From Methanolinea sp. (lineage in GTDB: Archaea > Halobacteriota > Methanomicrobia > Methanomicrobiales > Methanospirillaceae), in assembly GCA_029907345.1 (NCBI GenBank), contig JARYMB010000002.1, positions 62,001 through 126,000 on the forward strand: a DNA stretch of 64,000 bases, written 5' to 3'. The translations under genes were made by a program, and so were the position numbers. Of this stretch, positions 27,161-30,906 are shown one piece after another. The notes beneath the pieces were generated by a model, which did no database searches, was not told the DNA's origin, and saw only the letters and a list, made by a program, of their open reading frames with translations. The stretch's first letter is position 1. Each line of letters opens with the position of its first letter.

Positions 27161-27529
27161 ATGACCGATATTTACCGTTCCATATACCAGAAAATGAAAA
27201 AGATGGGGATCCTCGACGTGAAGCAGTATGCAGTCATCGAAAATCCTCCCCACGTGCCGCTCTGCATTGACAGGCTTTCCCCGGACACGTATGCACTCTC
27301 CCAGAACCCTGTTGTCGATGGACTTATGGTTGCAGATCCGGATGTCGAGGTACGTGTCAACCACGTGGACGAAACCGCAGAACCACTGGTCTACCTGTCG
27401 GGCGAGACGAGAAAGGTCGTTTATCCTGCACCCGGGAAAGTGAACCTTGCTGTCCGGAACGAATTATCGGCATTCCTCGACCGGTGGCTTTCCGATCTGA
27501 TCGCCCAGGGATTCAACCGGTACCAGTAA
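27161..27529 (+). CDS. Uncharacterised methanogen protein (122 aa)
   Basis: Soluble, with a helical N terminus (YRSIYQKMKKMGILD), a beta-rich centre (VDGLMVADPDVEVRVNHVDETAEPLVYL) and a helical end (LSAFLDRWLSDLI). The GGAGGGATC ribosome site four bases upstream of the ATG is very strong, so it is surely translated. I recognise no named domain; it looks like a small conserved archaeal DUF. Confidence 0.72.
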   Translation: MTDIYRSIYQKMKKMGILDVKQYAVIENPPHVPLCIDRLSPDTYALSQNPVVDGLMVADPDVEVRVNHVDETAEPLVYLSGETRKVVYPAPGKVNLAVRNELSAFLDRWLSDLIAQGFNRYQ

Positions 27530-27620: not shown

Positions 27621-28256
27621 GTGACACGCGGCGAAAAGTACCAGGGTGAACCGCATAAAACGCGGACTGGCATCATGATAAAAGATCCTCCCTTTTTCCT
27701 CCCTGAATTCGAGGACGCTTTCCGTTTCATCATCAGCACCTATGATCCCCCAAAGAGGGAGATCGCGATATTTCTCCCGTGTGCCCTCAGGAAACCCTAC
27801 AGCAGCAGCCCGAGTCACCGCCTGTTCCAGAGGGTTATCGATTCGAATCTTCTTCCGGATACTTATCATATCGTTGTTTTTGGGACTTGCGGTGTCGTCC
27901 CGAGAGAACTCGAACTGATGTATCCCTTTGCACATTATCATTACATGCTCGGGAAATGCTCGGACAATACCATACGCGAGGCGTTTCTCGAGATAGAGAC
28001 CTACCGCCTTGCAGCATACCTAATAAAAACGGAAGAGACTTACAGGAAACGTGTGGCTTATTGCATCGGTCCTTTCAGGGAGGCGATTCGCAGGGCGAGC
28101 CGGGAAACAGGGATCATGCTCGACATGCTCCTTCCATCTGCCTCCACTCTCGAAAAAAACCGGGACCCGGACTGCCCATTCCCCGAAGGTTCCCTCTCCC
28201 TGCAGGCATACCTGGAGGAGTTTGAAAGAAGTCTTGCCCTCCTGTCAAAAGGCTGA
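27621..28256 (+). CDS. DUF5591 / ArcS-like protein
   Basis: 211 aa. The segment IFLPCALRKPYSSSPSHRLF matches the DUF5591 module found in archaeosine synthase ArcS, where it follows the transglycosylase-like part. Here the module stands alone without the ArcS catalytic lysine domain or a PUA domain, so it may be a separate subunit of a tRNA-modifying enzyme or a different activity. GTG 27621 lies near an AAAAATATT box; ATG 27675 (MIKDPPFF) is an alternative start. Confidence 0.65.
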   Translation: MTRGEKYQGEPHKTRTGIMIKDPPFFLPEFEDAFRFIISTYDPPKREIAIFLPCALRKPYSSSPSHRLFQRVIDSNLLPDTYHIVVFGTCGVVPRELELMYPFAHYHYMLGKCSDNTIREAFLEIETYRLAAYLIKTEETYRKRVAYCIGPFREAIRRASRETGIMLDMLLPSASTLEKNRDPDCPFPEGSLSLQAYLEEFERSLALLSKG

Positions 28257-28400
28257 TGAATTATCCCCTTTTTTCCCTCTCGGGCCCATTACGTGACCCG
28301 GAATGATTCAAAAAGTTTAATAATAAGCGCTTTCCATGTTATAGCAGGTGTATTAGTGTCCAACTAAGTCACCGACTGAACGTTTCAATCCATGGCAGAA

Positions 28401-28421
28401 ACCCTGTCCGCCGGACAGGGT
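28401..28421. repeat. Perfect 10-bp palindrome
   Basis: ACCCTGTCCG and CGGACAGGGT are separated by a single C. It lies 80 bases past a good TATA-like box (AAAAAGTTTAATAATAA, 28311-28327) and before two direct copies of GTGTTTTTCCC (28443-28453 and 28459-28469). It may be an operator, or the stem of another RNA. Confidence 0.6.
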
Positions 28422-28511
28422 GGATGCCTCCTTGTGACGAAGTGTTTTTCCCGGCACCGTGTTTTTCCCTGCACTAATTATCTTGTAAATGTACCACACT
28501 CCGTGTCCTTA

Positions 28512-28884
28512 TAACAAAAAACAGTGTCCGGCACGGGGTGCCCCGTGAGGACGCTCCTGGAAACACACGTTCGGCCCTGCGATATCCCTTTTTTTGTCAC
28601 CCGCATCTCTTTCGCCGTTTTGAGATACGGGTTCGGGATATTGCAGCATCATGTTCCTTGAACATACTCTTCCGGCCCCGTTGACGATCTTTCTTTGCCA
28701 CCCATGGCCTTTTTCGCCGTTCTGGGCCATGAATTCAGATCATCACGGCAGTATGTTACCCAAACATTTGTTCGGCCCCGCAGTGAATGTCTTCTTCGTC
28801 ACCCGGATCTTCGAGCCGTTTCGATCCGGGGACTCATTTCACTGTGGCAGGTATCCCCAGTCAGTTCCCCACTGAGGCATACCC
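28512..28884 (-). ncRNA. Candidate structured RNA: three tandem covarying hairpin units
   Basis: Between convergent genes lie three units about 100 nt apart, each folding as outer stem, asymmetric internal loop, inner stem and a 12-15 nt apical loop. On the plus strand the outer stems are 28579-28588/28635-28644, 28682-28690/28737-28745 and 28781-28789/28835-28844; inner stems are 28600-28609/28622-28631, 28701-28709/28725-28733 and 28802-28809/28823-28830. Stem sequences differ between units, yet pairing is kept. Read on the minus strand, every apical loop contains AACGGC, each inner stem is followed by TGRC plus an A-rich strand, and each unit is followed by GGGCCG, which could pair with the loop. 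Small ATGTT/AACAT hairpins separate units. Four wobble pairs favour the minus strand, one the plus. Minus-strand TATA is near 28905; a 5' hairpin (GGTAT/ATACC with TCAGT/ACTGA) and a terminal CACGGGG/CCCCGTG hairpin plus T-run bound it. Function unknown. Confidence 0.7.
28532..28547 (-). terminator. Terminal hairpin of the structured RNA
   Basis: CACGGGG-TG-CCCCGTG is a perfect palindrome. On the minus strand it is followed eight bases later by a T6 run (plus-strand A6 at 28516-28521), an intrinsic-terminator shape. Confidence 0.5.
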
Positions 28885-28897
28885 CTTATAGCTTTCA

Positions 28898-28920
28898 TAG
28901 AATATATAGTTTTTTATCTT
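28898..28920 (-). promoter_or_regulatory. TATA/BRE promoter for the structured RNA
   Basis: On the minus strand the sequence reads AAAAAACTATATATTC, a purine BRE joined to a strong TATA box. Initiation about 26 bases on would fall at 28878-28885, right at the 5' hairpin of the candidate RNA. The same bases on the plus strand form a T6 run. Confidence 0.55.
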
Positions 28921-29043: not shown

Positions 29044-30546
29044 TCAGGCCTTTTTGAGGAACAAACCCGTCTTTGTCTCTTCCAGGACACGGGGACTTGT
29101 CGGAGGCGTCAGGAGGCTTACGATGACCATCGCTGCAATGGCAACGAGAACCCCGAAAAGACTGAAATGGACGGGCAGTGGCATGATCTTAAAATACGTC
29201 AGGCCCCCTGCCAGGCACGAAGTGACGAGCCCGAGGGCCATTGCGGCCAGCGCACCTTCCCGCGTTGCCCTCTTCCAGTAGAGCCCGGCAAGGAGGGGAA
29301 CCGCGAATGTGGCGAACATGATCCCGATACCTGCCCATATCAGCCATACGAGCATGGCAGGCGGGTCAAGCGCCATCAGGACTGTCAGGATGGCTGCAGC
29401 GGCAACGGATACCCTGCTGACGAGGATCACCTGCCTGTCTGTGGCATCCGGCCTGATGAGACTTTTGAAAATATCCCATGAAAAATACGTCCCAATCGTG
29501 AGCATCAGGCGGTCTGTCGTTGACATGACGGCAGCAAGGACAACAACGGCAAAAATTCCCCATAATACAATATTCGGGAGAGCGGACTGGATAGCGTATA
29601 TAAACACGAAATCCCCTGCATTCTTGACGGGCGGCAGGGTAATGGTCCCCTCGCTGACCAGTACCCTTCCTGCAAATCCACCGAACTTGAGAAGGAACAT
29701 GACCAGCCCGTAGATGCAGAATGCAATAAGCGGTGCCCACCTGAAGAATGAAGCGTTTTTCACAGCAAGGACGTTATTGATCACGTGAGGAGCGCATGCC
29801 AGCCCTACCATCAGGAGAAGGGAGAAAGAAAAGATATAGGCTGGAGTAAAGAGACCGGAATCGACCCAGAGCCTGATGAAATCCGGGTTCTGCGCTGCCA
29901 TAACCTCGTTGACGTGCATGAAACCTCCTGCCTTCATGATCACGAGGGGTGCCATAACGAGGACACCTGCAATGAGGATGAGGCCCTGTATGAGAGTGGT
30001 CCACGTGACTGCATACAGTCCGCCGATCACGGTATAGATGGTCACGATGCATGCTCCGGTGATGAGCGCCACCCAGTGTGGCAGACCAAAAAGCCACATG
30101 AGAACGATACTCACGGCTGTGTACTGCCCGGCAAGGTAAATCAACGAAACTATGATCCCGGAAACAGCCGACAATGACCTCATTGCAGTCTGACTTCCAT
30201 ACCGGTGGGCCAGGTAGTCCTGGATGGTGAGATATCCCCATTCCTGTGCCAGTCCATGGATCTTCACCCCAAAAAAGATGATGCAGAAAGCAATGGAAAG
30301 CGGGACAAAAATCTGTTCCCAGATCGTGGGCCATCCATACGCGTATCCCAGGCCTGAAACGCCGAGCAGCGACATCCCGCTGCAGACAGAGCCTATCATC
30401 AGCATGGTGAACAGCCAGAAACCAAGGGATCGGCCTGCCAGCACGTAATCGCTCATCGTGTGGATCTTTTTCGATGCCAGCACCCCGATCCCAACGAGGA
30501 CAAGGAAGTAGACGATGACAATTGCCACATCCACGAGGTCGATCAT
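29044..30546 (-). CDS. Sodium:solute symporter (SSS family)
   Basis: 500 aa with about 13 membrane helices. The first helix (VAIVIVYFLVLVGIGVLA) followed by SDYVLAGRSLGFWLF and GSVCSGMSLLGVSGLGYAYG is the typical SSS N terminus; AAVMSTTDRLMLTIGTYFSWDIFK in helix 8-9 carries the Ser/Thr sodium-site residues. Substrate (proline, pantothenate, acetate or another carboxylate) cannot be told. Start: GGGAGGATGA five bases before ATG 30546. The start overlaps the small gene upstream by four bases (ATGA), so the two are translated together. Confidence 0.9.
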   Translation of the reverse strand: MIDLVDVAIVIVYFLVLVGIGVLASKKIHTMSDYVLAGRSLGFWLFTMLMIGSVCSGMSLLGVSGLGYAYGWPTIWEQIFVPLSIAFCIIFFGVKIHGLAQEWGYLTIQDYLAHRYGSQTAMRSLSAVSGIIVSLIYLAGQYTAVSIVLMWLFGLPHWVALITGACIVTIYTVIGGLYAVTWTTLIQGLILIAGVLVMAPLVIMKAGGFMHVNEVMAAQNPDFIRLWVDSGLFTPAYIFSFSLLLMVGLACAPHVINNVLAVKNASFFRWAPLIAFCIYGLVMFLLKFGGFAGRVLVSEGTITLPPVKNAGDFVFIYAIQSALPNIVLWGIFAVVVLAAVMSTTDRLMLTIGTYFSWDIFKSLIRPDATDRQVILVSRVSVAAAAILTVLMALDPPAMLVWLIWAGIGIMFATFAVPLLAGLYWKRATREGALAAMALGLVTSCLAGGLTYFKIMPLPVHFSLFGVLVAIAAMVIVSLLTPPTSPRVLEETKTGLFLKKA

Positions 30547-30650
30547 GGATTCATCCTCCCGTAAATGACACCCCAGACGATCAGGAGAAGGATGACTGCC
30601 ACGACCGTGCACCCGGTGACTGCGAAGGTAAAAAGGAAGCCTTCCTGCAT
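30543..30650 (-). CDS. 35-aa single-helix symporter accessory protein
   Basis: Encodes a 35-residue peptide whose core (FTFAVTGCTVVAVILLLIVW) is one membrane helix, ending GRMNP. GGAGGGAT sits six bases upstream of its ATG, and its stop overlaps the symporter start. Small single-helix partners co-encoded with symporters are known (for example MetS with MetP), so I infer a stabilising or gating subunit. Confidence 0.75.
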   Translation of the reverse strand: MQEGFLFTFAVTGCTVVAVILLLIVWGVIYGRMNP

Positions 30651-30906
30651 GAATATCCCTCCTTTTTAGGCTTGGACACAAGATAATGGATTCGAAAATA
30701 TTCGCCATGCCGGCGGGATTTTTTTTCTCCCCCAACCATCCTGTCACCCCCCGGAAGGGCCCGGGCCATTTTCCACAAGACTAATAACAGGGTATTCTCT
30801 ATCCCTGATCACGTTGCACGGGTTCCTGACTCAGGGGCTCTCAACTTTGAAGATGCCTTTAAGTAGTTGTTGCGATAATGACAACATTATAAAGACACCG
30901 GATTCC
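30651..30906. promoter_or_regulatory. Divergent promoter region, symporter / ATP synthase operon 1
   Basis: Gene-free. For the plus strand, TATA-like boxes CTTTAAGTAG (about 30857-30866) and ACATTATAAAG (about 30883-30893) precede atpH by 20-50 bases; the first would give a short leader. For the minus strand, A/T-rich GAATATTTTCGAATCC (about 30690-30705) precedes the accessory peptide. Confidence 0.45.

Follow-up and report, generated by a model that had tools for sequence, protein, structure and literature searches.

Few large structured RNAs are well known in archaea, and most of those that are known belong to the core machines of the cell. Parallels to the RNA described here come from several quarters. 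The decoy sRNAs CsrB and RsmZ likewise consist of repeated copies of one module in variable number; their module is a short GGA hairpin that is bound by CsrA. In the SAM-I riboswitch and other fold-back aptamers, as is predicted here, an internal loop lets the hairpin bend, which brings its apical loop into pairing with a strand beyond the base of the stem. GOLLD, ROOL, and OLE are likewise lineage-restricted, free-standing, highly structured RNAs, in which many tertiary contacts are expected (PMC12286853), and sRNA154 of Methanosarcina (PMC3177094 and PMC11549558) is also a free-standing intergenic RNA of methanogens.

Within the 64,000-nt stretch of Methanolinea sp. DNA analyzed here (the window), which belongs to a genome assembly of 1.86 Mb that is 88% complete, positions 28512–28884 of the minus strand almost certainly encode a structured RNA, which would be free-standing and approximately 370 nt long, with predicted ends. 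Read on the minus strand from 28908 to 28512, the locus begins with a TATA box (TATATATT, 28901–28908), which lies 30 nt 5' of the motif GCCTCAG and is conserved in position in an alignment of homologous loci (A2). Next comes the first strand of P0, the stem that closes the RNA; this 5' strand (28850–28885) includes GCCTCAG (28872–28878) and CTGGGGATAC, and the homologous stem covaries in a shorter form of the RNA with only one unit. Then come three units, each composed of a stem P1, a joining strand J, a second stem P2, and a loop (unit 1, 28770–28849; unit 2, 28670–28750; unit 3, 28569–28648), which are separated by two linkers. The 3' strand of P0 (28535–28568) and a T-run read from the sequence (28516–28521), the presumed transcription end, complete the locus.

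The RNA lies between two convergent genes, both outside its boundaries: a sodium:solute symporter gene upstream (29044–30747, minus strand; PF00474, E 1.4e-60) and a gene for a DUF5591 protein (27621–28256, plus strand; PF17884, E 2.8e-19). Among five neighbors tested by blastp in 21 fetched loci of homolog family f1, the DUF5591 protein was the commonest partner (13 loci); the symporter was present in eight. The gene context varies between families, which argues for action in trans; in the window itself the RNA is judged to be free-standing, in agreement with the preliminary description of the locus. Adjoining the DUF5591 gene is a gene for a DUF6908 protein (27161–27526), which is retained near the RNA in 12 fetched loci. 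The stretch between the RNA and the DUF5591 gene (28382–28480) contains an inverted repeat (28394–28410 with 28412–28428, 82% complementary), two 16-nt direct copies at 28442 and 28459 that are 94% alike, and the string GTTTCAATCC, which resembles the start of a CRISPR repeat; the Rfam CRISPR models gave only matches far under threshold in this stretch.

The three units share a fold of about 80 nt, in which P1 (13 pairs, mismatches included) leads via a 1x9 internal loop to P2 (11 pairs) and an apical CGGC. The internal loop has one nucleotide on its 5' side and about nine on its 3' side, which carries the conserved GA..AAGA; P1 is followed by one G and then by GCCG (alignment A3). A covariance model matches all three units at E 5e-15 or better and finds no other match up to E 10 in the rest of the 64-kb window; the three units belong to the 32 training sequences of the model, so that the search tests the remainder of the window and not the units themselves. 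Identity among the three amounts to 38–47% of the stem columns versus 69–84% of the loop columns, and the means over 66 units are 46% for stems and 72% for loops. Three motifs are conserved in the alignment of homologs, several of their columns being invariant: AACGGC in the apical loop, GRYGAC..AAGAC in the joining strand, and GGGCCG after P1. The main claims of the preliminary description, namely that there are three tandem units of the same fold, that their stems are unrelated in sequence while their loops are constant, and that invariant bases occupy the apical loop, the joining strand, and the downstream GGGCCG, have thus held up. Unit length is nearly constant (79–82 nt in 67 of 72 units), which fits a single three-dimensional shape.

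Covariation was measured by counting pairs in comparison to shuffled and slid alignments. The cleaner count comes from A3, which was aligned with MAFFT only and comprises 32 units from 11 genomes, to the exclusion of unit 1 of genome G019 and the units of 13 other A2 genomes; 89.5% of its cells are standard pairs, versus 66.9% in shuffled and 32–43% in slid alignments, and both sides have changed at 24 of the 28 pairs. The larger A5 (98 units from 41 sources) leans toward the model structure because it was fitted to model R1, whose training units include those of the window; here, 89.9% of the pair cells are paired (65.3% shuffled, 26–44% slid), double changes occur at 26 of the 28 pairs, and as many as six different standard pairs are seen at a single pair of P1 or P2. 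On every one of five measures, none of 500 shuffles of A5 reached as high a value. The covariance-model search suggested at the outset has returned homologs with many compensating changes across Methanomicrobiales, in favor of the preliminary interpretation. Folding of a 461-nt stretch around the locus gave z-scores of −7.3 for the minus strand versus −4.2 for the plus strand, with none of 100 shuffles as stable on either. The RNAalifold consensus of 24 full loci has 74 pairs, 46 of them with a double change, and recovers P0, P1, and P2; the helix between the linkers (helix H, see below) was not recovered, and the GGCC after unit 1 was paired with the GGCC after unit 3, both of which are self-complementary. 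When rows of different groups were compared, units of equal rank were the closest to one another in 9 of the 12 comparisons, a weak hint that the three units are ancient rather than recently duplicated.

In each unit, the apical CGGC is predicted to pair with the GCCG that follows P1 (28815–28818 with 28773–28776 in unit 1, 28716–28719 with 28673–28676 in unit 2, and 28614–28617 with 28572–28575 in unit 3). A5 has the two motifs paired in 98.4% of the counted cells, and the loop pseudoknot proposed earlier is backed by a few compensatory changes: G-C has become A-U at position 2 in two rows of A5, with one G-U intermediate, and C-G has become U-A at position 4 in three rows. Some relatives have the combination CAGC/GCTG in their unit 3, and some one-unit forms have CGGT/ACCG; by eye, CGGTT pairs with AACCG in further one-unit copies, and TGGC pairs with GCCA in the third unit of locus L083, in a stretch missed by R1. 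In two genomes (G054 and G026), unit 3 has changed to CAGC/GCTG while units 1 and 2 retain CGGC and GCCG, indicating that each loop is matched to the partner strand of its own unit. Among the 26 one-unit RNAs of alignment A6, the pseudoknot is paired in 94.2% of the cells and has no double change. For CGGC to reach GCCG, P2 would have to fold back along P1 at the 1x9 internal loop; because end-to-end stacking of P1 and P2 would place the apical loop far from the strand after P1, we infer from the helix lengths that the RNA bends sharply at this loop. A kink-turn in the join was considered and is not claimed: P1 ends on its inner side in a standard pair that covaries, and the G and A bases therefore lie outside the kink-turn register.

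P0 joins the 5' and 3' ends of the RNA in a long stem with interruptions. When computed without loop penalties, the long-range duplex is more stable than both local hairpins summed in all 24 three-unit and all 26 one-unit RNAs. For the window RNA at 373 nt, the fold with local hairpins has −152.2 kcal/mol versus −150.8 kcal/mol with P0 forced, a gap of 1.4; when six 5' nucleotides are added, P0 becomes the energy minimum, as it is in the 461-nt stretch. Cognate P0 duplexes gain only slightly over non-cognate ones (means of −38.1 versus −34.9), because the RNA ends are conserved in sequence, and the one-unit form has double changes at 5 of 16 P0 pairs. Of the elements that had been proposed to frame the RNA, the TATA box and the T-run stand; for the two separate end hairpins, the two strands of a single closing stem are the more likely explanation in these folding models, even if the energies are nearly equal in the window RNA. 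An alternative local hairpin at the 5' end (28850–28885), in which GGTATGCCTCAG pairs with CTGGGGATACC, competes with P0 and might be a switch.

The linkers flanking unit 2 also pair with each other, forming a helix that is absent from the preliminary description. This helix H encloses unit 2 and consists of a 5' strand at 28751–28767 (outer part 28762–28767, inner part 28751–28757) and a 3' strand at 28651–28667 (inner part 28661–28667, outer part 28651–28656). The mean duplex energy of 24 cognate pairs is −15.7 kcal/mol, compared to −10.3 kcal/mol for all non-cognate pairs, −8.5 kcal/mol for pairs across families f1 and f4, and −7.6 kcal/mol for shuffled partners. The helix is weak or shifted in four loci (L082, L087, L089, and L090).

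Base-pair counts also bear on the strand. Read on the minus strand, the alignments have more G-U than A-C cells (64 to 41 in A3, 181 to 113 in the model-fitted A5); a plus-strand reading would reverse the ratio, so that the minus strand is favored and the earlier argument from G-U pairs finds moderate support. A crude AT-rich scan of 44 copies placed the best 8-mer 26–30 nt ahead of the P0 motif in 29, including the copy in the window, and elsewhere in 15. The T-run was not picked up by a simple terminator scan, whose rule requires a short hairpin immediately before it. The RNA would be transcribed from its own TATA promoter and end at the T-run.

None of the known RNA families compared accounts for the locus. 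Rfam 15 (4227 models, gathering cut-offs) identified only a tRNA in the whole window. At E up to 10, an 801-nt region around the locus gave four matches, all far below cut-off and none covering a unit; at E up to 0.5, eleven homologous loci gave three tRNAs and a sub-threshold IRES match (E 0.024) away from the RNA. The Rfam check called for in the preliminary description has thus yielded no known family in any of these sets. RNase P RNA (RF00373) and SRP RNA (RF01857) are rejected as identities, the genome having its copies on contigs C58 (182.5 bits, E 9e-55) and C33 (174.8 bits, E 3e-43), respectively. Archaeal H/ACA guides are characterized by a two-sided internal guide pocket and an ANA box right after each hairpin. 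Here, the internal loop is one-sided (1x9), and the sequence behind P1 is GGCCG or nearly so; an ANA box directly after the hairpin is absent, and ACA occurs only later, in some units. On this anatomy, an H/ACA guide was rejected. A Ro60-bound Y RNA was discarded for want of a TROVE match in the genome, which is 88% complete. The position is not that of a riboswitch, the next gene in 3' direction being on the opposite strand in the window and the contexts differing by family. A coding region was dismissed by a crude test of reading frames without codon-by-codon alignment, in which, for each of the six frames, some of the 24 homologs lack a stop-free run above 44 codons. In literature searches that left out most subscription papers, none of the titles and abstract openings listed describes the RNA, and PMC2864571, which has passages on archaea, does not mention Methanoculleus, Methanospirillum, Methanoregula, or Methanomicrobi. 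Judged by its sequence, the RNA is a new family, which shares only the repeated modules, a loose criterion among the membership criteria run, with established ones; its fold is probably also new.

Homologs are widespread in the genus and patchy beyond it. Each of the 13 genomes of the genus searched by BLAST, that of the window included, has the greater part of the RNA. Among 232 genomes of the order, model R1 detected units in 52 (E 0.01) and model R2 in 71 (E 0.001); in a sample of 392 genomes from the phylum, whose share of genomes outside the order is not stated, R2 detected units in 35 (E 0.01), all from the same order or closer relatives. Searches of more than 40 genomes used stricter filters and scored only 12–20 candidates per genome; with laxer filters, 40 hit-free genomes of the order yielded two weak matches only (E 0.08 and 0.4). 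At the sensitivity used, the RNA is therefore restricted to Methanomicrobiales, and its patchy distribution implies that many species either do without it or have a version too divergent for the model. A pattern search of genome contigs gave 27 matches. The 13 archaeal ones stem from Methanolinea (9), which is classed in the family Methanoregulaceae of the Methanomicrobiales, other Methanoregulaceae (2), and unclassified Euryarchaeota (2), and each has three units; by these relatives, the genome of the window would be one of Methanoregulaceae. The 14 bacterial matches contain no model hit with E below 0.18, and a bacterial spread was rejected; so was a virus-borne element, as viral contigs gave no match to one exact pattern fitted to the f1 form.

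Both the number of domains (one or three) and the number of gene copies (one to three) vary. Family f1 has three units as a rule, and three are also found in f4, where some are weak matches only; in f2, the models find two, and the longer stretch between them resembles a third by eye, whereas one unit is present in f5 and in one f3 genome. Among the matches listed, copies usually occur at one place per genome, with four exceptions (G094, G157, G158, and G230). In f4, and by eye also in f2, among the matches listed, a divergently oriented gene lies opposite the start of the RNA and encodes a protein with an N-terminus similar to MHRSLVWHEVGVEGNLALLRGGL (L072 and L079); a 36-residue piece gave no match in Pfam.

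The one-unit form is approximately 145 nt long. An alignment of 26 copies (A6, from which L062 and L063 are excluded and which includes many close relatives) spans P0, H, P1, P2, and the pseudoknot. In this alignment, 91.7% of the cells are paired, versus 85.9% in shuffled and 27–40% in slid alignments, and double changes occur at 22 of 47 pairs, with P0, H, P1, and P2 each represented; for one measure, that of further pair types, 36 of 500 shuffles came up to the observed value. In almost all of these copies (23 of 26), a small ferredoxin gene precedes the RNA, which starts 66–115 nt past the stop codon. Two of the remaining copies are second copies behind the same ferredoxin gene, and one is without a ferredoxin; for L062 and L063, none was found in the 700 nt or less that were scanned. 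The ferredoxins were identified by motif, and the one that was submitted to Pfam matches a single-cluster 4Fe-4S family. The sole match to that ferredoxin in the genome of the window (45% identity) is located on contig C11 and not on the contig of the RNA, which means that the link is not general; in the genus group concerned, the adjacency could reflect a local role. In G094, the pair of ferredoxin gene and one-unit RNA is present twice, 3.8 kb apart (2720–2863 and 6554–6697 of L064), with identical unit sequences and different upstream regions. Genomes G157 and G158 (L068, L069, and L070) have two tandem one-unit RNA genes, each with a TATA-like box, behind one ferredoxin gene, and G158 has a third one-unit copy at another place.

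Comparison shows a family of structured RNAs in Methanomicrobiales, read from the minus strand in the window, in which one P0 encloses one or three pseudoknotted domains. The reading that we prefer, and to which we give an even chance, is that it serves as a trans-acting, protein-docking RNA. The stems of the compact fold-back domain would be free to vary, whereas its loops and the bend would be fixed; each domain would offer a rigid docking site for one protein, and P0 and H would hold three of them together as a multivalent platform. With one protein per domain, three domains would make a scaffold or decoy with three binding places, and the minimal version would be the RNA with one domain, which is sometimes encoded by two or three gene copies. 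Protein binding as the mechanism is a tentative element of this scheme, which we rate slightly below even, and repeated modules would also fit small-molecule binding or RNA–RNA assembly. In the latter case, the RNA would act in trans by assembling with itself into an RNA-only complex whose intermolecular contacts are the loops and joins. The conservation of loops and joins next to variable stems agrees with such a complex, as does the self-complementary GGCC after each unit; covariation would be the same for pairing within the loop's own molecule or between identical molecules, and homo-oligomeric large RNAs have precedent (PMC12286853). We nevertheless consider it unlikely, given a one-unit form of only about 145 nt and a pseudoknot partner directly after P1, which makes pairing in cis the simpler reading.

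That each unit is a small-molecule aptamer, and the RNA a sensor or reservoir in trans that is riboswitch-like in fold but not in position, appears similarly improbable. Compact pseudoknots with a conserved asymmetric internal loop are typical of aptamers, and the nearly constant unit length would agree with one, but the RNA lies between convergent genes in the window and not ahead of a gene on the same strand, the one-unit form is located behind a ferredoxin gene, and no expression platform is visible. An sRNA that regulates mRNAs by base pairing and uses its stems for stability only would have counterparts among the free-standing intergenic sRNAs known from archaea (PMC5867862), but there is no long conserved, exposed seed, CGGC and GCCG being engaged with each other and the other invariant positions being short joins, and we regard this as quite unlikely. 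Long stems can also act in DNA, as protein-binding sites or cruciforms, with the RNA being incidental; the excess of G-U over A-C cells on the minus strand in both A3 and A5, the TATA box at a set distance on the same strand in most copies, and the nesting of the long-range helices P0 and H with a pseudoknot leave very little probability for this. That a housekeeping or guide RNA of known type (RNase P, SRP, H/ACA, or C/D) has diverged into this form is scarcely credible, even if a large structured archaeal RNA located mostly at one place per positive genome, among the matches listed, might be taken for one: the RNase P and SRP RNAs are encoded elsewhere in the genome, none of the units is covered by an Rfam match up to E 10, and the 1x9 internal loop is not a two-sided guide pocket.

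The RNA would add a new family, probably with a new fold, and possibly a novel RNA–protein complex to methane-producing archaea. The prospects are evenly balanced that the 80-nt fold-back pseudoknot, single or as a trimer within one closing stem, defines a new archaeal RNA class and forms the core of a putative ribonucleoprotein or a multivalent regulator in a major group of methanogens. Its repeated domain is well defined, a minimal version of about 145 nt occurs naturally, and most carriers have it at a single site, which makes the system directly testable.

Each of the systems named at the beginning differs from this RNA in other respects. Methanosarcina, the source of sRNA154, belongs to another order, and the sample of 392 genomes from the phylum gave no match outside the order of the window. 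In comparison to GOLLD, ROOL, and OLE, the RNA is archaeal, smaller (about 145 or 370 nt), built on one repeated pseudoknot unit, and without a match in Rfam. The likeness to SAM-I ends with the fold-back of the hairpin, because the four-way junction and the kink-turn register in the join are missing, the RNA is not located in a leader, and it has no match in Rfam. Compared to CsrB and RsmZ, the repeated module is an 80-nt pseudoknot whose apical loop carries AACGGC instead of GGA; the RNA is not a member of their family but may work alike.
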